From positions 1-36,025 of IMG/VR virus record IMGVR_UViG_3300036715_000321: DNA of 36,025 nucleotides; one strand, 5' to 3'. Positions 3,233 to 35,758 of this stretch are shown here, one piece after another. Below the pieces are notes generated by a model. It did no database searches and was not told where the DNA came from. It saw only the letters and a list, made by a program, of their open reading frames with translations. Within the stretch, counting starts at the first letter, position 1. Each line of letters opens with the position of its first letter. Source of the stretch: a virus. Both the position numbers and the translations under genes were made by a program.

Positions 3233-3715
3233 ATGAAGTACATCTCCACGAAAACATACACCCAGATTGGCCCTGTTGCTTATCGTCAATGGCGAGCAGA
3301 TAGCCACTGTCGGTTTATTCACGGCTACGCGCTGTCTTTCCACTTCGAGTTTGAGTCCGATACTTTGGATGCTCGAAATTGGACACTGGACTTCGGGGGA
3401 CTTCGGGTCTTAAAAGAGAAGCTTGAAGACTGGTTTGACCACAAACTATTAGTCGCGCAGGACGACCCTCAGTACGCGGAACTCATTAAGCTGGGTGACC
3501 AGAAATTGGCTCAGATCACCGTCGTTGCAAAGACAGGCTGTGAGGGTATCGCAGAGTTCCTCTACGAGTACATCAACACCATCATGTTGCCCAGCTTTGG
3601 TGCTGGTGAAGCTGAACGAGTGTGGTGCTGCAGGGTTGAAGTGCGGGAAACCAACAGCAACATGGCGATGGTAGTTGGCCATCGTGAAGATAACCACCCG
3701 TGGGATGCCGTATGA
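3233..3715 (+). CDS. queD: QueD-like 6-carboxytetrahydropterin synthase
   Basis: A 160-residue member of the QueD/PTPS family, which converts dihydroneopterin triphosphate to 6-carboxy-tetrahydropterin, the second step of preQ0 synthesis after FolE. Visible signatures are SHCRFIHGY with H25, candidate catalytic C26 and H30; LDFGGL and FDHKLL; a Glu in KTGCEGIAEF; and the EVRETNSN strand near the end. The usual HxH zinc motif is H30-G-Y32, so one canonical zinc His is replaced by Tyr; H37 might substitute. Its TGA overlaps the QueE ATG (ATGA), consistent with coupled translation. Confidence in the family is high. Confidence 0.9.
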   Translation: MKYISTKTYTQIGPVAYRQWRADSHCRFIHGYALSFHFEFESDTLDARNWTLDFGGLRVLKEKLEDWFDHKLLVAQDDPQYAELIKLGDQKLAQITVVAKTGCEGIAEFLYEYINTIMLPSFGAGEAERVWCCRVEVRETNSNMAMVVGHREDNHPWDAV

Positions 3716-4524
3716 CCTATCCATCAATCGTTATGCACCAAGACCGGCCTGTTACATCAGCCTCCTTCCGAGACCAGGACGCACTTTGGGTTACCTCTGT
3801 GTTTCGCACAATTCAGAGCGAGGGCCCCTACGCAGGACACCCAGCTATGTTCGTACGTCTCGCTGGTTGCAATTATGGAGATAAGAAAAATTGGTGTGCC
3901 TTCTGCGATACAGACTTCCGTATCGACTCTGCCAGTCACTATAGTGCCGAGTCACTACTGGCTAAGATGACGGCCGAGGGGTGGCAGCTTAATGACGTCG
4001 TGGTGTTCACTGGAGGTGAACCCACTCTCCAGCATTACCTGTTAGACGTCATCGTCGCGTTGCGATCACGGAATCGCCATGCTACTGTACAGCTGGAGAC
4101 CAACGGTACGCAGGCATCGTTCTTCGTCAAAGCCAACACACCTGAATATCGCGACCACTGCCACATGTCTGTTGTATGTAGCCCGAAGGCGGGACCAAAG
4201 GGCTATGTTGAATTGTCTCCAACGGTGTTGGTAGAAGTCGAAGCTCTCAAATTTGTAGTAAGCGCAGATGAAGGCCCCCATCATGAAATTCCTGAGTGGG
4301 CCTTAGATATTCGCCGTGGTGCGCGCAACGTACTCTGCGACGTCTACGTGTCGCCTATGGCCCAATACCTTCGTGCTTATGACGGTGAGGTGTCCTCTAT
4401 TTGGGATGACACTCTTATCGACAAGCCACGCACCTCAGCTAACTACTCATACGCTGCAGCGTACGCCCTCAAGCATAACCTGCGGCTTTCCCTGCAAGGT
4501 CATTTGTTCTGCGCATTGCCGTGA
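3712..4524 (+). CDS. queE: QueE-like 7-carboxy-7-deazaguanine synthase (radical SAM)
   Basis: A 270-residue radical SAM enzyme expected to rearrange carboxytetrahydropterin into 7-carboxy-7-deazaguanine. RTIQSEGPYAG near residue 32 is a hallmark N-terminal motif, followed by C53, C62 and C65, which would ligate the 4Fe-4S cluster, and by GGEP at 101-104 for SAM binding. The cluster motif is C-x8-C-x2-C rather than the radical SAM standard C-x3-C-x2-C; QueE enzymes are known to vary here. ATG 3712 is chosen because it forms an ATGA overlap with queD, although a GTG lies four codons upstream. It ends in a GTGA overlap with the next gene. Confidence 0.92.
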   Translation: MTYPSIVMHQDRPVTSASFRDQDALWVTSVFRTIQSEGPYAGHPAMFVRLAGCNYGDKKNWCAFCDTDFRIDSASHYSAESLLAKMTAEGWQLNDVVVFTGGEPTLQHYLLDVIVALRSRNRHATVQLETNGTQASFFVKANTPEYRDHCHMSVVCSPKAGPKGYVELSPTVLVEVEALKFVVSADEGPHHEIPEWALDIRRGARNVLCDVYVSPMAQYLRAYDGEVSSIWDDTLIDKPRTSANYSYAAAYALKHNLRLSLQGHLFCALP

Positions 4525-5033
4525 TTGACATACCTAAAAGAGTAATGAGCTACCAAGAGCTTCTTGACCATGCGCAGACGATGGCGCGCTTCATTCACCA
4601 AGGGTTTCCAAATCACCAACTGGTAGCGGTGGCGAGAGGTGGGGTTACCGTAGCTCATCGTATCGCGTACTTGTTAGGTAAGCCGTTAGGCTTCTTCGTG
4701 CCAGCACAACCACAGACACCAATCTTCCTGCAGAACCCCGTTGACGTGCCGCCTCTCTTTATCGAAGACCTTATCGCCAAAGGGCGAACGCTTCAGTTAC
4801 TAGACCAAGTGTCTCACAGTTACCCATTCCACAAAGATTGGCAGCTTATGTGTGTGGTGAAGGATAAGAATGCTCAGCTGCCCACGCATCTTGTAAATAG
4901 GGTGAACACTGTTCTAGTTCCAGACGAGTGGATTGTGTTTCCCTATGAAGATGAAGATCGTGTTCAGGTTGCCGACTGGGGACTGTTCAGAGAAGGAACC
5001 AGCGCAAATGCCAAACCAAAGGAAGACCTATGA
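4521..5033 (+). CDS. phosphoribosyltransferase family protein
   Basis: A 170-residue type I phosphoribosyltransferase-like protein. LVAVARGGV near residue 34 and LFIEDLIAKGRTL near residue 77 match the phosphate-binding loop and PRPP-binding region of purine PRTases; the usual DD before the TGxT loop is ED here. It would transfer a base to PRPP. It is wedged between queE and queC with 4-base overlaps on both sides, so it is almost certainly coexpressed with preQ0 synthesis. One inference is that it salvages the guanine released when DpdA exchanges bases. A role with preQ0 itself or a regulatory role is also possible. The GTG start forms the overlap; an ATG at 4545 is an alternative. Confidence 0.8.
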   Translation: MIDIPKRVMSYQELLDHAQTMARFIHQGFPNHQLVAVARGGVTVAHRIAYLLGKPLGFFVPAQPQTPIFLQNPVDVPPLFIEDLIAKGRTLQLLDQVSHSYPFHKDWQLMCVVKDKNAQLPTHLVNRVNTVLVPDEWIVFPYEDEDRVQVADWGLFREGTSANAKPKEDL

Positions 5034-5818
5034 GTAAGATACTTATCTTGTACAGCGGCGGCTTAGACTCATTGATAATGAAGCGGTACGCTGAGGTGCA
5101 TAACCCGGACGACGAAGTCCACTGTGTGTGGTATGACATAGGTCAGCCGTACGCTGACAAAGAACGCGCTGCTCTCCCATACTACGTAGAGCAGGTTAAG
5201 TTGGGCTTTACCATGAAGGAGTATGGTAAGTCTGCGGATAAATCGCTGTCAGGCAATATCTTCATTCCTGGTCGTAACCTGGCATTGGCAACATTGGCCG
5301 CCTGTACCTACTTACCCAGTGAACTGTGGTTAGGTGCCCTGCGCGGCGAGACTCACGCTGAGGCCACTGACAAGAACTTTGTGTTTGCTTCCAATTCCTC
5401 CAGACTGTTGACTTACGTGTTACGTCCGTTCCTGCCCGAGGATGCCCCCTCCACACGAGTACGCCTTCCTCTCGCAGAACACGGCCTGAACAAGTTAACA
5501 GCCACCAAGTGGGCATTGGACAATGGTATTAGTAAAGAGACGCTAATGGCTACCAGCAGCTGCCTGTCAGGTGTCTCAGGTAACTGTGGTGAATGTATTG
5601 TGTGTTTGCGTCGTTGGGGTATCTTCAAGCAGTTGGGCTTTGAGGAACAATACAACACCCATCCCCTCTCAGTGCCACACAACCTAGAGATTATCGAGAA
5701 GTTAAAGAATGGAACCAATTATGACCGACAAGTTGAAATCCTCCCCGCCCTCGGATTCCCCGTCAACCAACCCTTCGAGGGACCCGAAGCCGCTTCTATC
5801 GCTCACCTCGGCTTCTAA
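5030..5818 (+). CDS. queC: QueC-like 7-cyano-7-deazaguanine (preQ0) synthase
   Basis: A 262-residue ATP-dependent enzyme that would turn 7-carboxy-7-deazaguanine into preQ0. SGGLDS at residues 9-14 is the PP-loop for ATP, FIPGRN near 78-83 is a QueC signature, and C178, C186, C189 and C192 form the zinc site of the family. Length matches stand-alone QueC; there is no glutamine amidotransferase domain like that of the archaeosine-type fusion found in some phages, so preQ0 rather than G+ is the expected product. It starts with an ATGA overlap. Its last 110 bases are also read in another frame as the start of the next gene. Confidence 0.93.
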   Translation: MSKILILYSGGLDSLIMKRYAEVHNPDDEVHCVWYDIGQPYADKERAALPYYVEQVKLGFTMKEYGKSADKSLSGNIFIPGRNLALATLAACTYLPSELWLGALRGETHAEATDKNFVFASNSSRLLTYVLRPFLPEDAPSTRVRLPLAEHGLNKLTATKWALDNGISKETLMATSSCLSGVSGNCGECIVCLRRWGIFKQLGFEEQYNTHPLSVPHNLEIIEKLKNGTNYDRQVEILPALGFPVNQPFEGPEAASIAHLGF

Positions 5819-6251
5819 GGTACTTGTCTTTGATATTGATGGTTGCGTGTTTGACTCAGAGCATCGACTCCACCACTTGCTCGAAGGCCGCTTAGATGAC
5901 TACGACGAGGCTCATGTACATGACGTAGCAATCCCACAAGGCGTAGCGGTGTACAGAGCTATTGTCAATAGCTCAACCTGGACTATTCCTATTTTTGTAA
6001 CCGGACGCTCTGAGCGTGCGAGGGAATACACCATCAAACAGTTACGTTCCCTGTTCGACTTCGAGTTCTTTTTACTCATGAGACCCGATGGCGATACAAC
6101 CCATGACATGCTGCTCAAACCTAGGCTGTTGGCTGATGCTTGTGTGTTACCCGAGAACATCTTCATCGTGTTCGAGGACCGCGCTTCAATGGTAAAAGAG
6201 TGGCGTCGACTAGGCGTCGTTTGTTACCAGACTGCTACTGGAGATTTCTAA
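5709..6251 (+). CDS. HAD-superfamily / PNKP-like phosphatase
   Basis: A 180-residue protein with HAD motifs: FDIDGCVFD (nucleophile and acid Asp residues) near residue 41, FVTGRSERAREYT (motif II), LMRPDGD with a downstream Lys, and IFIVFEDRASMVKEW, where DDR is usual. The order resembles the 3'-phosphatase domain of T4 polynucleotide kinase, so a nucleotide or polynucleotide phosphatase is likely. Its first ~36 residues are Ser/Pro-rich and overlap queC by 110 bases; no start codon is seen between the queC stop and the catalytic motif, so the overlap seems genuine (ATG 5721 is an alternative). It ends in a TAATG junction with dpdA. Whether it acts in the deazaguanine pathway is unknown. Confidence 0.8.
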   Translation: MEPIMTDKLKSSPPSDSPSTNPSRDPKPLLSLTSASKVLVFDIDGCVFDSEHRLHHLLEGRLDDYDEAHVHDVAIPQGVAVYRAIVNSSTWTIPIFVTGRSERAREYTIKQLRSLFDFEFFLLMRPDGDTTHDMLLKPRLLADACVLPENIFIVFEDRASMVKEWRRLGVVCYQTATGDF

Positions 6252-7552
6252 TGAGCATAGCTTCACGGGTACGGTATGTGCCCGCAGCGGGGGAGGGGTT
6301 GATTTACCCCTCTACACTCTACACCAAGTACCAGACAAACGAGAACACTGGCATGCAGCACTCGTCCATGATTACAAAGATCAAGTTGCCTGATCGTAAT
6401 GTGATCTTTGCTCGTGGGGGCTCCAAAGCCTGTCGGCCCTATCTCACCAAGATGGACTTTGACGAGGTGGTGGATGTTAACAGCGTTGCGTCTCATGGCT
6501 GCTCTACTGTTCTGGTGAATGCGTGGGCAGCGCCAAAGTATTACAAGAAACTCCCCTTTAAGAATTTCGTCAACGTCATTTGTGACTCTGGTGGATTTCA
6601 GTTGGTGAAGGGGATTGTAGATGGTATTGACTTGGAGGCCATTGCTGATTACTACAACCGCAATGCTACTATAGGCATGGCAGTTGATATTCCGACTTTC
6701 GCTGCGGTAGAGCCCCACTACTTCGATAGGGTTACGAAGATCATGAAGGCTAACGATGACTTCATGCTGCAGAGACTAGAGTCCCATGTTGATCTAGCTA
6801 TGGTGTCTCATGGCACCACTTTAGCCATGCGCTTAAAACGTCTCAAGGCGCTAGAACGTAAATGCGACACTCTGGCCATCGCTGCGTTGAAGGTCCCCAC
6901 CGACCCCAGCCACAAGACTACTGACATTTTCCTAAATGCGGTATCCCTATTGGTTGGCGTTATTCATGCATACCCAGACAAGAAGTATTACCACTGCTTG
7001 GGTGAGACTTCTAACTTCTGGTTGTTCATTTACGCTTACATGGTTGGTGCGGGCTTGGTAAAGCACGATATTGGTGGTGACTCTGTTACTCACCTCCGAA
7101 ACGGAATGGTTGGGGCAATGAAGACGTCCACAATAGGTGAGGGCTTCAAGATCGATCGCGCTAACACTATACCCCTACCCTTGCCCTGTGGTTGCCCTAT
7201 TTGTCGTACACTTACCGACTCTCGCATCATGTTGAACTCGTACCTGCTTAGTGCTCACAACCTGTGGGCGCTCAACACGTTGAAAAACAACCTGTGTGAC
7301 TCAGTGGGGGGATACTTCAAAGGAACCCAGAAGCTGTCGGCTATCGTAAAGACCTACCTGCCACAACCCATGCACGAAGTCGCGTTCTCTGCTGCGCGCT
7401 ATCTTGATAAGGTTGCGCAGAGTGGGTATTATGAGTATCGTTTGCCTAAGTCCACATCCCTTTTCAAGACGGAAGCCATGCAGGACAAGCACAAGCAACG
7501 TTTTGACAAGATCATGCACTTCTACGAGACCTATCATGGCCGCAAGTTCTAA
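6251..7552 (+). CDS. dpdA: DpdA-like DNA deazaguanine transglycosylase
   Basis: A 433-residue member of the tRNA-guanine transglycosylase superfamily. CDSGGFQ at 111-117 is the base-acceptor motif (Asp112), and C313, C315, C318 and H336 reproduce the TGT zinc site. Next to a preQ0 biosynthesis operon in a phage, the best reading is a DpdA that exchanges guanine for a 7-deazaguanine in DNA rather than in tRNA. It is divergent from bacterial Tgt. ATG 6251 is chosen because it forms a TAATG junction with the previous stop; the open frame extends upstream only as a shadow. The modification would protect phage DNA from restriction enzymes. Confidence 0.88.
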   Translation: MSIASRVRYVPAAGEGLIYPSTLYTKYQTNENTGMQHSSMITKIKLPDRNVIFARGGSKACRPYLTKMDFDEVVDVNSVASHGCSTVLVNAWAAPKYYKKLPFKNFVNVICDSGGFQLVKGIVDGIDLEAIADYYNRNATIGMAVDIPTFAAVEPHYFDRVTKIMKANDDFMLQRLESHVDLAMVSHGTTLAMRLKRLKALERKCDTLAIAALKVPTDPSHKTTDIFLNAVSLLVGVIHAYPDKKYYHCLGETSNFWLFIYAYMVGAGLVKHDIGGDSVTHLRNGMVGAMKTSTIGEGFKIDRANTIPLPLPCGCPICRTLTDSRIMLNSYLLSAHNLWALNTLKNNLCDSVGGYFKGTQKLSAIVKTYLPQPMHEVAFSAARYLDKVAQSGYYEYRLPKSTSLFKTEAMQDKHKQRFDKIMHFYETYHGRKF

Positions 7553-10269: not shown

Positions 10270-10929
10270 ATGTCGAAACAAGACCCCGCGCTCGGACAAA
10301 AAGTGCATGAGCATTTGTTAGCTATTGGTGTGGAAACCCCCACTGTCGCCTCTGCTCTCGGTCGCCCTGCGGCTGACAAGATTGACGACCTCACCTCCCT
10401 GTTCACACAGATATGGTCTGTGGTGGGATTGGACCTTACAGATGACAGCCTGCAGGAGACTCCACTGCGCATGGCTAAGATGTATGTCAACGAGATTTAC
10501 TACGGACTCAATTACGACCTGTTCCCTAAGTGCACCACAGTGGACAACAAGATGGAGTACAGGGAAATGATTGTGGAGAAGAACGTTACCGTTCAATCGA
10601 ACTGTGAGCATCACGGCGTTGTAATTTCTGGCAAGGCCCATGTGTCTTACATCCCTAACCAGAAGGTGTTGGGTTTGTCGAAGATTAACCGCATCGTCGA
10701 GTTCTTCTCTAAGCGCCCACAAATCCAAGAGCGCCTTACGGAACAGATCTATCACGCTCTGTCCTGCATCCTTGAGACTGCCGATGTAGCGGTAATCGTC
10801 GAAGCCGAACACTACTGCGTAAAGTCCCGAGGTATTAAAGATACGGGTTCCTCCACTGTAACCTCTCGTGTTGGCGGTGCCTTCCTTCAACCAGCAACTC
10901 GTCAAGAGTTTCTTGCCCATATCAAGTAA
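10270..10929 (+). CDS. folE: GTP cyclohydrolase I
   Basis: A 219-residue GTP cyclohydrolase I that would open GTP to dihydroneopterin triphosphate, the first step toward preQ0. Signatures include SNCEHHGV with C112 and H115 and HYCVKSRGI with C183, the three zinc ligands; SYIPNQKVLGLSKI; and FSKRPQIQERLTEQI. Length fits the FolE type. It is separated from queD, queE and queC by about 5 kb that includes the glycosyl genes, yet completes the pathway in this window. It begins after a 70-base leader with AGAGGA as ribosome binding site and ends in a TAATG junction with the next gene. Confidence 0.95.
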   Translation: MSKQDPALGQKVHEHLLAIGVETPTVASALGRPAADKIDDLTSLFTQIWSVVGLDLTDDSLQETPLRMAKMYVNEIYYGLNYDLFPKCTTVDNKMEYREMIVEKNVTVQSNCEHHGVVISGKAHVSYIPNQKVLGLSKINRIVEFFSKRPQIQERLTEQIYHALSCILETADVAVIVEAEHYCVKSRGIKDTGSSTVTSRVGGAFLQPATRQEFLAHIK

Positions 10930-13327: not shown

Positions 13328-14014
13328 ATGATACCGAAGACCATCTATCAAACCTATTGCTCGCATATAGCACTCCCCTCAATCATAGAGGACTCTATAA
13401 AGGCTATGCGCTTACGCAACCCTGCGTGGACCTATCAGCGTTGGGACGATGTCGGTGTTCACGCATTTATGCGTTACCACAGTTGGCCCGCGTTATGGGA
13501 GCAGTATAGTCGGCTCACTACACCCATAACACGCATTGACCTATTCAAGTATCTGCTCATGTACATTTCCGGTGGCTTCTACTTGGATATTAAGAGTGTT
13601 GCGACCCGCCCGCTAGATGAAGTCCTATTACCAGATGACTCATTCATTGTCTCTGGCTGGAAGGACCCACTGTCAGACCTGTGTTTCAATGCCACCGAGT
13701 ACATGCAATGGTTTATTTGTTCTGAGCCAGGGCACCCGTATCTTAAATCGACGTTGGAAGTTGCCATTGAGAAAATCAAAGCCTACGACGAAACTGTAAA
13801 TGGAGTAGGTAAGAACGCGGTGTTGGCTTTAACAGGGCCACACGTATTCACGACGGGTATAGTGCGAATCGAAGATGCTCACCCACACAGACATGCGCTA
13901 TACATGACTGACCTGGGGCTGAATTACACAATCTTCGATAGCCTCACTGAACATGAGACGCTATTCAGCACTCACTATTCTCGTAATACGCTACCCTTAG
14001 TAGCACCATTTTGA
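13328..14014 (+). CDS. GT32-like glycosyltransferase (OCH1/DXD family)
   Basis: A 228-residue protein with the layout of the glycosyltransferase sugar-binding DXD family (GT32). The N-terminus IPKTIYQTY is the family signature, NPAWTYQRWDD follows, and TRIDLFKYLLMYISGGFYLD leads to D87-I-K-S, where the second Asp of DxD is Lys, a variant I believe occurs in bacterial members. It would transfer a sugar from a nucleotide donor. It is the second glycosyltransferase-like gene in this window and lies before the RNA-rich region. The acceptor could be modified DNA, cell surface glycan or virion protein. Confidence 0.8.
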   Translation: MIPKTIYQTYCSHIALPSIIEDSIKAMRLRNPAWTYQRWDDVGVHAFMRYHSWPALWEQYSRLTTPITRIDLFKYLLMYISGGFYLDIKSVATRPLDEVLLPDDSFIVSGWKDPLSDLCFNATEYMQWFICSEPGHPYLKSTLEVAIEKIKAYDETVNGVGKNAVLALTGPHVFTTGIVRIEDAHPHRHALYMTDLGLNYTIFDSLTEHETLFSTHYSRNTLPLVAPF

Positions 14015-14019
14015 TGTTG

Positions 14020-14173
14020 CGGGCCTAGTTGCCCGGATATGTTGGGGAACGTTCTTGGAATTTGTCTCCCGCGCATGTACTTTTTGCCTCCCTGAAACCA
14101 TGCGCAAAGTGCCGGACCATCATGTCTGGCGACCAACACGTCCCCCTGTGAACTAACACAGGGCAACCTTTTT
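14020..14173 (+). ncRNA. candidate structured noncoding RNA
   Basis: No gene fits here, but strong base pairing is visible. CGGGC/GCCCG forms a hairpin at 14020-14035. A long-range stem pairs 14044-14058 with 14133-14145 (GGGG/CCCC, ACGT/ACGT, TTGG/CCAA with a bulge and a small internal loop). It encloses GCGCATG/CATGCGC (14071-14077 with 14099-14105) and GCCGGAC/GTCTGGC (14111-14117 with 14124-14130). A terminator hairpin with a T5 run follows. This looks like a folded, terminated small RNA just upstream of a tRNA. It resembles no RNA family I know. Structure was judged by eye only. Confidence 0.5.
14144..14173 (+). terminator. Rho-independent terminator
   Basis: CCCTGTG (14144-14150), loop AACTAA, CACAGGG (14157-14163), then CAACC and five T residues (14169-14173). 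The 7-bp GC-rich stem followed by T residues is a good intrinsic terminator. It ends the candidate RNA and separates upstream genes from the tRNA. Confidence 0.7.
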
Positions 14174-14198
14174 ATGCAGAGAGTTTCTAGGAAACAGT

Positions 14199-14275
14199 GG
14201 GACGTTAGCCAAGTTGGTTACGGCCCTCGACTCATAATCGAGATATCGCTGGTTCGAGCCCAGCACGTCCCACCA
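14199..14275 (+). tRNA. tRNA with CAU anticodon (Met or Ile2)
   Basis: A complete cloverleaf: acceptor GGGACGT/ACGTCCC, D stem GCC/GGC, anticodon stem CTCGA/TCGAG with loop CTCATAA (anticodon CAT), T stem GCTGG/CCAGC with loop TTCGAGC, discriminator A and an encoded CCA end, 77 bases in total. The G1-C72 pair rules out an initiator tRNA. CAU can be elongator Met or, after lysidine modification, Ile for AUA codons; the T arm GCTGG/CCAGC resembles E. coli tRNA-Ile2 more than tRNA-Met, so Ile2 is slightly preferred. Confidence 0.95.
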
Positions 14276-14290: not shown

Positions 14291-14494
14291 ATGCAAGAAC
14301 TAGCACCACATCAACAGCGTGTCGTAGCAGAGAAGCAAGAGCTCGATGCCCGCCTGGGGGCTCTCACCAAGTTCTTCGGTACTCCCACTTTTAACGGGCT
14401 CGATAGTTCCGAAGTCATTCGTCTTCGTCGCCAACACCACTTCATGACGGGCTACTTGGAAGTGTTGGGTGATCGCATTGCTGCGTTCTCGTGA
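14291..14494 (+). CDS. small helical phage protein (crAss001_48-related type)
   Basis: A 67-residue helical protein with the pattern HQQRVVAEKQELDARLGAL, then FF, then LDSSEVIRLRRQHHFM and a final GYLEVLGDRIAAF. This arrangement is shared by a widespread small phage protein family called crAss001_48-related, function unknown. It begins 16 bases after the tRNA and ends in a GTGA overlap with the next frame. Family recognition is from memory of the pattern. Confidence 0.75.
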   Translation: MQELAPHQQRVVAEKQELDARLGALTKFFGTPTFNGLDSSEVIRLRRQHHFMTGYLEVLGDRIAAFS

Positions 14495-14778
14495 GTGCGT
14501 ACAATATCCCTCCGGGTACTATTCACCCAGACGACGGGCAATGCCTTTCTACCAGGGTAGCAGACAACCCAGGCTTCCTTCTTGTGGGTGAGATAGGTAC
14601 CCTGAATACGGATTTCCAAATAGTAGGTAGCATGACAAGTGGTACACCCAGTACCCTAACCTCCACCAGAAACTTGGTTTCTATACTGGCGGCAAGGGAA
14701 CCTTCCAAGAGTGCCCGCCAACTGTCACCGCCTAAGACTAAGCCGTATTACAGGAAGTTTGCAAAGAGCCGTTATTAA
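14491..14778 (+). CDS. hypothetical protein, frame uncertain
   Basis: A GTG start at 14491 overlaps the previous stop, and the frame reads 95 residues. The N-terminus (YNIPPGTIHPDDGQC) is protein-like, but the later part is Ser/Thr/Arg-rich and looks like a shadow. From 14631 the frame one base back reads naturally (HDKWYTQYPNLHQKLGFYTG and onward) to a TAA at about 14733; that frame has stops upstream at about 14598 and 14628. The region may be a decayed or frameshifted gene. No function is assigned. Confidence 0.4.
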   Translation: MSAYNIPPGTIHPDDGQCLSTRVADNPGFLLVGEIGTLNTDFQIVGSMTSGTPSTLTSTRNLVSILAAREPSKSARQLSPPKTKPYYRKFAKSRY

Positions 14779-14780
14779 GT

Positions 14781-14882
14781 TTTGGGCTAGGGTGTGTATG
14801 TGGGTTAGCTCCGCATACAAGACTAACCTCAGGGTATAGCTAACAAAGGCAACACTGCTTCATGTGAGCACTCTAGCCCAAA
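14781..14882 (+). ncRNA. candidate structured RNA with pseudoknot
   Basis: A 10-bp perfect stem closes this intergenic element: TTTGGGCTAG (14781-14790) with CTAGCCCAAA (14873-14882). Inside, TGTATGTGG (14795-14803) pairs with CCGCATACA (14811-14819) around a 7-base loop GTTAGCT. That loop is exactly complementary to AGCTAAC at 14838-14844, giving a possible pseudoknot, and an overlapping GGTTAG can alternatively pair with CTAACC at 14823-14828. A small TGCT/AGCA hairpin follows. The element ends just before AGGGAG and the ATG of the next gene, so it may be a cis-regulatory leader, a stable RNA or a processing site. No known family is recognised. Confidence 0.5.
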
Positions 14883-14898
14883 TCCTATAGGGAGTAAC

Positions 14899-15746: not shown

Positions 15747-15777
15747 TTAACACAGTCCATGTAAGATAGCGTATACT
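15747..15777 (+). promoter_or_regulatory. weak sigma70-like promoter candidate
   Basis: TATACT at 15772-15777 is a good -10 hexamer, with TTAACA at 15747-15752 as a possible -35, but the 19-base spacing is longer than optimal. It lies at the start of a 164-base gene-free stretch leading to the topoisomerase-like gene. Confidence 0.25.
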
Positions 15778-15822
15778 GGATGCGCTCCTATTTGCGCGAG
15801 TAGTTTATCTGCTCAGTACACT

Positions 15823-15846
15823 GGGACGGTCAACATTGACCGTCCC
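15823..15846 (+). terminator. terminator-like hairpin
   Basis: GGGACGGTCA pairs perfectly with TGACCGTCCC around a 4-base ACAT loop. The stem is strong, but the sequence after it (CTTGTCACG) has no T run, so it may be a stalling, processing or protein-binding hairpin rather than an intrinsic terminator. Confidence 0.45.
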
Positions 15847-15861
15847 CTTGTCACGTCCATT

Positions 15862-15902
15862 CTGTGCAGTACAAGTTTCAATTTCATTTTGTCTTTGCAC
15901 AG
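15862..15902 (+). promoter_or_regulatory. hairpin overlapping the ribosome binding site
   Basis: CTGTGCA (15862-15868) is exactly complementary to TGCACAG (15896-15902). The right arm covers part of AGGA (15901-15904), the ribosome binding site for ATG 15911. The 27-base loop is T-rich. The fold could dampen translation of the topoisomerase-like gene until opened. Confidence 0.4.
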
Positions 15903-15910
15903 GAATCACA

Positions 15911-17542
15911 ATGAAACTCTACATGCTAACCGCGTCACGTTTAGCTGACCTGCTACAGATCCTAGGCGCACTTATTGCCGATTATATGGAAAACCCGAAG
16001 GCTCCCATGTCTCGGGATTTGAAGCCCTTCGTCAAGAACGTACTTCAATGGAAGTCACTTCCCTCGCTTCCAGCTGCTGTCGACACGGCCATAAAAGGTG
16101 GCGACAAGTTATCCGCGTTGTTTGAGTTGTCTGCTGATATTAAGCAGGCGTACTCTAGCTATCACCAGGATAAGGACTTCGACACCACTGAGCTGAATAT
16201 GCTCAAACAGATCCGTAGCTACTTGGCTACGGACTCAGATACTGCGCTCAAGTACATCTGTAAGAACGCAGGTGTCTTCAATTCCCCCGAACTTGCCAAG
16301 ATCTTTCTACCCGCCGCTGTCGGTTCCGACCATAAGGCACTGCGCCGTTCTGTAAAGACGTTAGTGGGGCGTGACGGAACGTTCCTCACTGCCGATGAGA
16401 TGGCACTACTTAAAGATACTAACGCCAAAGGCCTTGCTGACTATCAAGCGCAACGTAAATCCCACAACGCGGACTACGCATCGTCACTTGTCCAATACGT
16501 GCGCTCGCAAAACAAATCCAAGGTACCTTACCAAGCAGCTTTCGACACGCTTACCAAACAGGGTTTCACGCACTCTATGGTTCCGGGCTTCATTGGTCTA
16601 ATAGACGATAAGGGGCGCTGGTACACCTCCAAAGGCGAGGCTATTGCCAATATACCCAACCTCGTGACCTACAGCCACGTTGTTATGAATGACGGCAAAG
16701 ACCCGGATGCGCAGTGGTCGTTTAAGGCCTACAAGCATGACGGTAGCGGGGTGGCCTATGGGTACACCGCAACCTTCCAAGCGCTGCAACGCAAAGCTAA
16801 GTCCGAGCACGTTAAAGAGCTAGCACTCAACATTGACAAGATTCGCGCGAAGTGGTTGGTGAAAGTTAAGAAATTCAACATTGCTGACCCCGATTCAGTG
16901 GCTGCGGTAGTTTTAGAAATCCTGTTCAGCTACGCAGCACGTATCGGTACTGCTCCCGGTCGCGGTGCGGGTACGTTACTTGTTAAGAATGCATCCGTAA
17001 CTAGCACGGGTATCAATCTTGCGTACTTGGGCAAAGATTCTATACCCACCAAACACATCATTAAGTCAGCAGACCCCATCCATAAGTATCTTGTTAAAGA
17101 CCTTACTGAACTTATGAGTGGCAAGACCAAAAACGATTTCCTTTACACCTACGATGTGAAGTCACGCAAGCTGCGCGTGACTCCTGCTATGGTGAATAAG
17201 GCGTTCCACACCTTCGGCGCCCCTAGCACTGTTACCGTCCACAAGCTACGTACCTTCCGTGGCACCGCACTATTCCTGCAACTGTCAGAAGCAGATGAAT
17301 CGCGTCGGGGGCCCGCTACGCAGAAGGACGCTATTCAGCGCTGGAAAGAGATGACTGAGAAGGTTGGTAAGCTGCTAAATCACAAACGTGGTGTAGGCAC
17401 GGACAACGAGAAAGTGACTGGTGTAACTGCCGCTACCAGCTACATCGCGCTCGAGGCACAAATGGACCTTTTCGACCGTTGGGGGTTCCGTCCACCAGTG
17501 GCTTTGGAGAAGGCCGCAAAGAACGAGAAGTCAGATGACTAA
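15911..17542 (+). CDS. topoisomerase IB / tyrosine-recombinase-like enzyme
   Basis: A 543-residue protein whose C-terminal half has the catalytic order of type IB topoisomerases and tyrosine recombinases. SYAARIGTAPGRGAG contains candidate catalytic R344; AYLGKDSIPTKH gives a Lys on the beta-hairpin; HKLRTFRGTA (444-453) matches the second Arg region (R447); LNHKRGVG supplies a His; and TAATSYIALEAQ contains candidate nucleophile Y511. YSHVVMNDGKDPDAQW near 258 resembles the DNA-clamp part of viral TopIB. It would relax supercoils by a 3'-phosphotyrosine intermediate. The ~250-residue N-terminus is unrecognised. The start is supported by AGGA upstream; the leader is hairpin-rich. Confidence 0.75.
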   Translation: MKLYMLTASRLADLLQILGALIADYMENPKAPMSRDLKPFVKNVLQWKSLPSLPAAVDTAIKGGDKLSALFELSADIKQAYSSYHQDKDFDTTELNMLKQIRSYLATDSDTALKYICKNAGVFNSPELAKIFLPAAVGSDHKALRRSVKTLVGRDGTFLTADEMALLKDTNAKGLADYQAQRKSHNADYASSLVQYVRSQNKSKVPYQAAFDTLTKQGFTHSMVPGFIGLIDDKGRWYTSKGEAIANIPNLVTYSHVVMNDGKDPDAQWSFKAYKHDGSGVAYGYTATFQALQRKAKSEHVKELALNIDKIRAKWLVKVKKFNIADPDSVAAVVLEILFSYAARIGTAPGRGAGTLLVKNASVTSTGINLAYLGKDSIPTKHIIKSADPIHKYLVKDLTELMSGKTKNDFLYTYDVKSRKLRVTPAMVNKAFHTFGAPSTVTVHKLRTFRGTALFLQLSEADESRRGPATQKDAIQRWKEMTEKVGKLLNHKRGVGTDNEKVTGVTAATSYIALEAQMDLFDRWGFRPPVALEKAAKNEKSDD

Positions 17543-24280: not shown

Positions 24281-24557
24281 ACCATTTGTTAGGAAGTCAT
24301 CGTCTGGTACAGCTCGTATCGTACGTGATTCCTATTCAAATGCGAATTCAAAAGTCCAATGGTGGACTATACGCAAAGAAGTATTTACGCGCGATGGCGG
24401 GTTATGCCAGGCCATTAAGGGTGGGAGAAAGTGTTTGACGAAGGGCACTGACGTTCACCACATAATTCCGCTCTCTAGGGGCGGAACTACCAGCAAAGCA
24501 AATCTTATGACAGTCTGCGACGACTGTCATAAGGATCGCCATTCACACATGGGGTAG
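24267..24557 (+). CDS. HNH endonuclease
   Basis: A 96-residue HNH nuclease. The beta-beta-alpha metal fold is visible: C47 and C56, then VHHIIPLSRGG with H64/H65, N79 in KANLMTVC, and C84-x2-C87 with H92. The Cys pairs bind structural zinc and the HNH residues cut DNA. It is small and free-standing. Phage HNH proteins of this size often aid DNA packaging with terminase or act as homing nucleases; no terminase is visible here, so the role is open. GGGAG lies before ATG 24267. Confidence 0.9.
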   Translation: MSFHRPFVRKSSSGTARIVRDSYSNANSKVQWWTIRKEVFTRDGGLCQAIKGGRKCLTKGTDVHHIIPLSRGGTTSKANLMTVCDDCHKDRHSHMG

Positions 24558-24559
24558 AG

Positions 24560-24676
24560 ATGACGATCAACGCCATTACCAAGACCCCATCCCAAACAAG
24601 TGCCCATAAAGGTACGGATGGCGATCTTGAAAAGGGAGCTTTTCATTGCGGGCAATTCCGCCCAAGAGAGCACTAA
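24560..24676 (+). CDS. small hypothetical protein (38 aa)
   Basis: A 38-residue ORF filling the gap between the HNH and hemerythrin genes: ATG two bases after the HNH stop, TAA two bases before the hemerythrin ATG. The product (MTINAITKTPSQTSAHKG and onward) is polar with one Cys. The call rests on spacing only. Confidence 0.45.
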   Translation: MTINAITKTPSQTSAHKGTDGDLEKGAFHCGQFRPREH

Positions 24677-34422: not shown

Positions 34423-34980
34423 ATGGCAGCCCCTCCTAAGGGAGGACTTACAACGATGCTGCTTTCAAATCTTCACGAAACGGTTCCCGCCGGATTAACT
34501 GTAGCCCTCTACAAAGGCACCAGACCGGGTATGTCTGGTGTTATGAATAGAGTTGGTCGTTACCTAGATGACGGTAATTACTCCCACTCTGAGCTTATCA
34601 TACGTGGGCTTAGCTACTCCTCCTCCTTTGAAGACAAGGGAGTACGCGCAAAAGTAATTAACTACTCCTCTGTGGGTTGCTGGGACTTTATACCTATAGC
34701 AGACCCCGCCGGAGAGTTAGCCGCTGGCGCCTTGACGTGGTTCTACACACACATGGGCCAACCATATGACCTTTTGGGCAACCTGCATTTTGTATTTGGT
34801 TTTGTGCGCAACAGTGATGGTAGATGGTTTTGTAGTGAGTCCACCGCGGCGGCGCTAGGTTTCCACGAACCTCATCGTTACGGGCCATCTGGTCTGGCCG
34901 CAGCTATTGGTGATCGTTTCGGGTCACCCATTATTAGAATTCCAAAACTCAGAGAATATGACACACAAACCACATCCTAA
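34423..34980 (+). CDS. permuted papain-like (YiiX/NlpC-P60-type) amidase
   Basis: A 185-residue member of a phage family with a permuted papain-fold hydrolase look: VALYKGTRPGMSGVMNRVG, then NYSHSELI with H55, WDFIPI, the MGQPYDLLGN segment, and WFCSES with candidate nucleophile C137. The His-before-Cys order is the permuted YiiX/NlpC arrangement. It may be an amidase or peptidase acting on cell wall or lipid substrates. GGAGG precedes ATG 34423, which is why this start is preferred. It overlaps the following peptidase gene by 23 bases. Confidence 0.75.
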   Translation: MAAPPKGGLTTMLLSNLHETVPAGLTVALYKGTRPGMSGVMNRVGRYLDDGNYSHSELIIRGLSYSSSFEDKGVRAKVINYSSVGCWDFIPIADPAGELAAGALTWFYTHMGQPYDLLGNLHFVFGFVRNSDGRWFCSESTAAALGFHEPHRYGPSGLAAAIGDRFGSPIIRIPKLREYDTQTTS

Positions 34981-35758
34981 AGCCGTATCCCGTCAATTGT
35001 CTTGGAAGCGCCAGGACGTAGACGAGCGTGACCATCAAGTTAAGACCAGCCCGTACTTTACATTGGTACACCACAAAGACCTGCCACACTCTGTGGATCT
35101 GCGGCCTGGTTGCCCTCCTGTTTATGACCAGGGTAACCTAGGTTCGTGTACAGCTAATGCACTAGTTGGGGCATTAGAGTATTTGGAGAATACTGCACAT
35201 GACCTGGAAGTTGAGAATGCCTTTGCACCTCTAAGTCGGCTATTCGTTTACTACAACGAACGTGTGGTAGAAGGGACGGTCAAGCAGGACGCTGGGGCAC
35301 AATTGCGTGATGGTATTAAGGTACTAGCGAAGACCGGTGCTTGTAAGGAAGACCTATTCCCTTACAACATACATGCGTTTACTAAGCATCCAGCCCCTGA
35401 TGCGTATACAGATGCTACGCATAGAAAAATTACTGCGTACGCTGCGGTCGAGCAATCGCTAAGCGGGTTGAAGCAAGCATTGGCCTCTGGTTATCCGGTT
35501 GCGTTCGGCTTCGAAGTCTTTACCTCTTTTGAGACCGAGGCAGTTGCGGAAACCGGAATTCAGCTACTACCACAACCACACGAACACCACATGGGTGGGC
35601 ACGCTGTACTGATGGTAGGTTACGACGACGCAGATCAAACTTTCCTAGTACGTAACTCTTGGTCTGCGGAATGGGGCATCTCGGGTTATTTCAAGATGCC
35701 CTACGCTTACGCGGTCGATAGCAAACTAGCGAGCGACTTCTGGGTGATAAATAAGTGA
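34958..35758 (+). CDS. C1A papain-like cysteine peptidase
   Basis: A 266-residue papain-family peptidase. Gln and Cys of the active site are in YDQGNLGSCTANA (C64), His in MGGHAVLMVGYD (H215) and Asn in VRNSWSAEWG (N233), all in the right order; the WG-x-x-GYFKMP tail matches C1 peptidases. There is no signal peptide, and the ~50-residue N-terminus is too short for a full propeptide. It could process phage or host proteins in the cell, or travel with the virion. It overlaps the previous gene by 23 bases and ends a trio of Cys-His hydrolase-like genes. Confidence 0.9.
   Translation: MTHKPHPKAVSRQLSWKRQDVDERDHQVKTSPYFTLVHHKDLPHSVDLRPGCPPVYDQGNLGSCTANALVGALEYLENTAHDLEVENAFAPLSRLFVYYNERVVEGTVKQDAGAQLRDGIKVLAKTGACKEDLFPYNIHAFTKHPAPDAYTDATHRKITAYAAVEQSLSGLKQALASGYPVAFGFEVFTSFETEAVAETGIQLLPQPHEHHMGGHAVLMVGYDDADQTFLVRNSWSAEWGISGYFKMPYAYAVDSKLASDFWVINK

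Follow-up and report, generated by a model that had tools for sequence, protein, structure and literature searches.

A terminator-ended structured RNA candidate and a second, covarying RNA family at one locus of a Motura-like jumbo phage

Genes and features at the locus

The window, i.e., the whole stretch of DNA that was analysed, is a 36,025-base virus record that represents part of a Motura-like jumbo phage. It is placed among the Motura/BcepSauron jumbo phages because of its topoisomerase, head-tail connector, and helicase genes, which group it with Achromobacter Motura, Burkholderia BcepSauron, and approximately 30 IMG/VR contigs. Frames at 3233–7552 and 10270–10929, read from their translations, resemble queuosine-precursor genes (QueD, QueE, QueC, DpdA-like, and FolE-like) and thus suggest 7-deazaguanine DNA modification in this phage. 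A papain-type protease gene (PF00112) is located at 34907–35758.

The stretch under study, termed RNA A here (14020–14173, 154 bases), has the stop codon of a glycosyltransferase gene on its 5′ side and a tRNA-Met gene on its 3′ side, all on the plus strand. The glycosyltransferase gene, of the DXD sugar-binding type (13328–14014; Pfam PF04488, E 1.3e-7, above gathering), terminates with a TGA at 14012–14014, and the structure of RNA A starts 2–6 nt past it; since this stop codon directly precedes RNA A, the glycosyltransferase transcript is likely its source or host. The tRNA-Met (CAT; 14199–14275) is a separate neighbour, 25 nt past the terminator of RNA A, and 14291–14494 holds a small crAss001_48-family gene (PF21825).

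The initial annotation regarded these 154 bases as free of genes and ending in a Rho-independent terminator, and both points hold: no same-strand gene lies within 14020–14173, the glycosyltransferase gene ending at 14014 and the tRNA-Met starting at 14199, and a terminator at 14144–14173 passes strict criteria. Neither ARAGORN nor RF00005 matched a tRNA or tmRNA within 14020–14173, the only call being 14199–14275, and no promoter-like site was seen just upstream. Nor did the stretch match any family of Rfam 15, even at E ≤ 5 with permissive filters; the initial annotation, too, had recognised no family in it.

Fold of RNA A and its counterpart in a relative

Folding against shuffled controls, proposed as a check when the stretch was first annotated, gave a minimum free energy (MFE) of −56.2 kcal/mol vs −42.3 ± 3.6 for the shuffles (z −3.84), with none of 200 shuffles as good. 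In a 150-nt scan of the whole window, the site has a low energy given its composition without being extreme, 24451–24650 and 15776–15925 being stronger. Since other stretches fold better, energy alone is modest evidence and no proof of RNA A function; as judged from the sequences, it is the comparison with the relative G002, not folding energy, that carries the main weight for RNA A being functional.

Of the four helices and the long-range closing stem described initially, the multi-hairpin fold and the closing stem are seen, whereas the hairpins number five: a 5′ hairpin, three hairpins within the closing stem, and the terminator. The 5′ hairpin (CGGGC-CUAGUU-GCCCG) spans 14020–14035. The closing stem P1 (14035–14143) pairs GGAUAUGUUGG (14035–14045) with CCAACACGUCC (14134–14143 in the MFE fold) at 9–10 of 11 positions and surrounds the weak hairpin P2 (GGGAACGUUC...UGUCUCCC, 14045–14070), the inner part of which has a low pairing probability; P3 (GCGCAUG...CAUGCGC, 14071–14105) with the exposed loop GCCUCCCUG; and P4 (UGCCGGAC-CAUCAU-GUCUGGCG, 14110–14131). 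The intrinsic terminator (CCCUGUG-AACUAA-CACAGGG followed by CAACCUUUUU, 14144–14173) consists of a hairpin of seven pairs at 14144–14163 and the tail CAACCTTTTT. It is one of only two on the plus strand of the window that pass strict criteria and provides RNA A with the G+C-rich hairpin and 3′ U-run by which small RNAs ended by an intrinsic terminator are recognised. When the fold begins just past the stop codon (14015–14175), an optional outermost helix of 5 bp is predicted for the window sequence between GUUGC (14016–14020) and GCAAC (14164–14168). The UAGUU of loop 1 is complementary to the AACUA of the terminator loop, and a kissing contact between the two loops is possible in the modelled fold.

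Among the relatives that were read (G002, G003, G004, G026, G030, and three further contigs), noncoding sequence at the RNA A site occurs only in G002 (IMGVR_UViG_3300004095_000016; locus L095), where bases 111–360 are noncoding and are flanked by what looks like the end of the glycosyltransferase gene and by a gene homologous to 14491–14778 of the window. The G002 site lacks both the tRNA and the crAss001_48-type gene; RNA A is, therefore, not their appendage. The tRNA as a part of RNA A, and RNA A as a tRNA leader, were rejected on the same ground.

In each of the two genomes, exactly three hairpins carry a hexaloop on a stem of at least 5 bp, and their order is the same. The corresponding loops (window/G002) are CUAGUU/UUAGUC, CAUCAU/CAUCGC, and AACUAA/AAUUAA, giving the consensus YUAGUY, CAUCNN, and AAYUAA-terminator, while the stem sequences are completely different. 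The G002 hairpins comprise UUACC-UUAGUC-GGUAA (L095 ~270–285), GCUAGU-CAUCGC-GCUAGU, in which the CAUC of the P4 loop is kept and the stem is replaced, and the terminator CUGAUG-AAUUAA-CAUCAG followed by CUACUUUUUU; the last two hexaloops are spaced by 33 nt in the window and 32 nt in G002. Relative to its terminator, the G002 closing stem UGUUCAAUAG/CUAUUGACA is positioned as P1 is, loop 1 is complementary to the terminator loop in both genomes (UAGU with ACUA or AUUA), and both expose a CUCCCU that is unpaired. However, the topology differs: the closing stem encloses the first hairpin in G002 but not in the window, and P2 and P3 of the window have no clear G002 counterpart.

None of 5000 G002 shuffles was as good in a test of the ordered hexaloops, and the value with loop letters permuted was 1e-4; this test was set up after the resemblance was noticed, so its p-values flatter the match. 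A three-hexaloop descriptor matched only the window and G002 in about 3 Mb of sequence, redundancy included. The best unfiltered match in 84 kb of a covariance model made from the window RNA A alone was the syntenic G002 site, with 16.8 bits (E 0.016 for 84 kb; 5.7e-5 for a local search); under default filters, the same single-sequence model gave no match in 35 related records. Searches of some 50,700 phage records and 72,500 plasmid records gave no DNA-level homologue of RNA A, and IMG/VR scans with the glycosyltransferase, the topoisomerase, the small protein of 14491–14778, and a gapped motif found the site to be common only to G002. The search for homologues in related phages that the initial annotation had called for has thus returned changed stems and kept loops at a syntenic site, albeit in two members whose topology is not identical, and two members are insufficient for a firm consensus or an independent covariation statistic. 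On this comparison, RNA A is a new structured jumbo-phage RNA with two members and a putative function.

RNA B, a second RNA at the same locus

Another structured RNA, RNA B (14776–14887, plus strand; model match 14780–14887; fold z −3.96), is located about 600 bases downstream of the RNA A end. Its closing stem P1 (14776–14794/14869–14887) has arms of 19 nt that are 84% complementary, its P2 loop is GUUAGCU (14804–14810), and its P4 is CAC-UGCUUCAU-GUG (14853–14866). In G002, RNA B (L095 128–223) is situated just upstream of RNA A, and the two copies share GGGUUAGC[G/U]CC and ACACUGCUUYAUGUG on different stems. No family of Rfam 15 corresponds to RNA B, for which only sub-threshold microRNA-type matches were returned, and a search of the open PMC literature for its motif letters retrieved no relevant paper.

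A gapped pattern derived from the window and G002 copies, searched against 85,000 genomes, retrieved eight stretches, of which five belong to Betaproteobacteria; all eight fold alike, and three are identical to one another, in unrelated assemblies. The assemblies holding this identical sequence (L109, L110, and L111) are named Aeriscardovia, Vreelandella, and Clostridia, and a shared contaminant or phage DNA is the likely cause of the identity. The covariance model R2 revealed a second tandem copy in a prophage of Achromobacter dolens LMG 26840 and matches in six other genomes among 399 of Curvibacter's family, one of which (L135) was rejected. The members comprise window 14776–14887, L095 128–223, L110, L114 (two copies), L120–L123, L127, L131–L134, and L136–L138. 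As weak matches lacking one or both loops, L117–L119, L129, and L135 were discarded, and L130 was likewise excluded from the model.

Across 15 distinct sequences, 90% of the cells are paired in a structure of P1, P2, P4, and a loop kiss, and 16 of 22 pairs have changed on both sides. The covariation of 0.633, in an alignment fitted to the model and so leaning towards that structure, compares with 0.148 ± 0.024 for shuffles (0/500) and at most 0.164 for slid controls; in the first MAFFT alignment, made before model fitting, 13 of 18 pairs covaried. The P2 loop GUURGCG is predicted to kiss the P4 loop UGCNNYAU, and this contact covaries, A-U becoming G-C in the two members where it changed.

Most bacterial copies outside the first set have a G+C-rich terminator directly after the closing stem, and the neighbours are mostly phage genes, such as terminases, a P22-type portal, an S24 repressor, and RusA; the Curvibacter copy adjoins gyrA and is of putative phage origin. 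At L144 6926–7102 (genome G782), with portal and terminase adjacent in a P22-like phage, RNA B ends 5 nt before a tRNA-Met, which parallels the 25 nt between RNA A and tRNA-Met in the window. Further searches, the large ones under stricter filters, found no other members in 42 more Achromobacter genomes, 368 other genomes of the class, or 27 jumbo relatives, and RNA B is a rare family. No RNA A was found near the RNA B copies of bacterial genomes.

From its sequences and their predicted fold, RNA B is a new RNA family absent from Rfam 15 that occurs in jumbo phages and in phages and prophages of Burkholderiales. It is better supported than RNA A and is the firmer discovery of the two. The two RNAs have in common the locus, the relative G002, a closing stem, hairpins, and a possible loop-loop kiss; many bacterial RNA B copies also have a terminator right after the stem, and one copy is 5 nt from a tRNA-Met. 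However, RNA A has neither the GUURGCG nor the UGCNNYAU loop, and model R2 matches only 14780–14887 in the window; hence, RNA A was rejected as a member of the RNA B family.

To our knowledge, catalogues contain hardly any noncoding RNA genes from jumbo phages. The present locus yields RNA A, a clear and testable candidate with a named 3′ end, together with a new covarying family that is common to jumbo phages and unrelated Burkholderiales prophages. Movement of a structured RNA between unrelated phages makes it likely that they benefit from it, and among the carriers of RNA B are named bacteria with prophages that may be inducible in the laboratory.

Possible nature of RNA A and other structured stretches of the window

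Structured, terminator-ended, free of coding sequence, and with its loops conserved at a syntenic site, the stretch 14020–14173 is read here, with middling confidence, as a phage noncoding RNA gene that has a defined 3′ end near 14173 and loops kept as a working surface. RNA B, found at the same locus and built on the same plan of a closing stem, hairpins, and an often adjacent terminator, is counted in support of RNA A as an RNA gene. Probably, RNA A is a discrete small RNA that is cut from, or ends, the glycosyltransferase transcript and acts in trans. Transcription through the glycosyltransferase gene, or from a promoter inside it, would enter the compact multi-hairpin domain and stop at the intrinsic terminator, leaving a 3′ end near 14173. 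Selection would hold the YUAGUY, CAUCNN, and AAYUAA loops while the stems drift; in both genomes, UAGU of loop 1 would pair with AYUA of the terminator loop in a kiss that closes the molecule, and a protein or RNA partner in trans could reach CAUC and the exposed CUCCCU. From this arrangement, we infer that RNA A is released on its own as a small RNA, that the two loops kiss, and any role in trans.

Bacterial small RNAs derived from 3′ UTRs start after the stop codon and use the terminator of the gene itself; RNA A, which resembles them in layout, also starts after a stop codon and would use the terminator of the glycosyltransferase gene. RNA C and RNA D of phage T4 are stable small RNAs of its tRNA cluster that are cut from the tRNA precursor. 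By description, RNA A is akin to them as a structured phage RNA of 100–150 nt beside tRNA genes, whereas it ends at its own terminator and is present without a tRNA in G002.

Since RNA A starts after the stop codon, shows no promoter-like site, and ends at a terminator, it is most simply explained as the tail of the glycosyltransferase transcript, which would be excised as a small RNA or remain a 3′ UTR. That it is merely the 3′ UTR of this mRNA, in which a stabilising structure and a terminator act in cis and never form a separate RNA, is possible, although we doubt it. The immediate succession of stop codon, structure, and terminator, with no promoter between, agrees with such a role, as does the end of the same gene type upstream in G002; however, a plain terminator needs one hairpin, yet three loops are kept on changing stems, and the link is indirect in G002, where RNA B sits between the gene and RNA A. 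It is also unlikely that RNA A is a riboswitch-like, cis-acting leader or attenuator that controls the tRNA and downstream genes by termination. As in many riboswitches, a P1-closed junction directly precedes the terminator, and the U-tract of G002 runs right up to the start codon of the reading frame that follows. Nevertheless, no antiterminator was found in the window RNA A: masking the terminator costs 9.9 kcal/mol and leaves the other helices as before, and the lack of a competing helix freed in this way argues against attenuation. Masking in G002 costs 3.8 kcal/mol, and one extra helix forms. Moreover, the next gene differs, i.e., a tRNA in the window vs a protein gene in G002, and neither a conserved regulated gene nor an Rfam riboswitch match was found.

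A conserved unit that works as DNA, for instance as a recombination or replication site with the RNA fold as a by-product, is very improbable: inverted repeats fold on either strand, and the minus strand also folds well, but the T-run makes the terminator strand-specific and the G-U pairs in the plus-strand stems favour RNA. The already disfavoured reading of ordinary spacer folded by chance is the least credible of all. Other stretches of the window do fold even better for their composition; against chance stand the shuffle results (0/200 for the fold, 0/5000 for the ordered loops) and the unique descriptor match at the syntenic site, where these loops sit on other stems, and the initial judgement that the complementarity is too regular for spacer is borne out.

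Returning to RNA A as a noncoding RNA gene, the proposal of a regulatory or decoy RNA fared less well and is only partly supported. A decoy of the CsrA/RsmE type was rejected as GGA motifs are not conserved (none in the G002 copy), a polymerase decoy of the 6S type was rejected for want of an RF00013 match, and no idea of target pairing or protein binding reached significance. The strongest predicted partner of the loop CCUCCCU is the ribosome-binding site in front of the 15251 gene, at −17.2 kcal/mol, a value that 17% of shuffled loops match; the sequences suggest, as a lead, a pairing of the exposed CUCCCU with ribosome-binding sites. More speculatively, and with little probability, RNA A and RNA B may be two classes of one strategy, in which kiss-locked small RNAs beside tRNA or structural genes capture or mimic a component of RNA handling or defence in the Burkholderiales host.

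Elsewhere in the window, a very stable structure at 24500–24645 (z −7.56) overlaps both the 3′ end of an apparent HNH endonuclease ORF and the spacer that leads up to the gene at 24646, and may be a mobile-element RNA or an intron remnant. A very stable spacer at 15760–15909 (z −5.57), just before the topoisomerase gene, combines GGGACGGUCAACAUUGACCGUCCC, a hairpin resembling a terminator, with the inverted repeat CUGUGCA...UGCACAG, which surrounds the probable start region. A CAATTTTATG-like motif precedes the topoisomerase gene in most relatives (L099–L106), is very rare elsewhere in these G+C-rich genomes, and is a candidate phage promoter. Within the small genes before the topoisomerase, a 20-nt repeat beginning GAGTTGGAAGAG is present in three copies (15326, 15579, and 15641).
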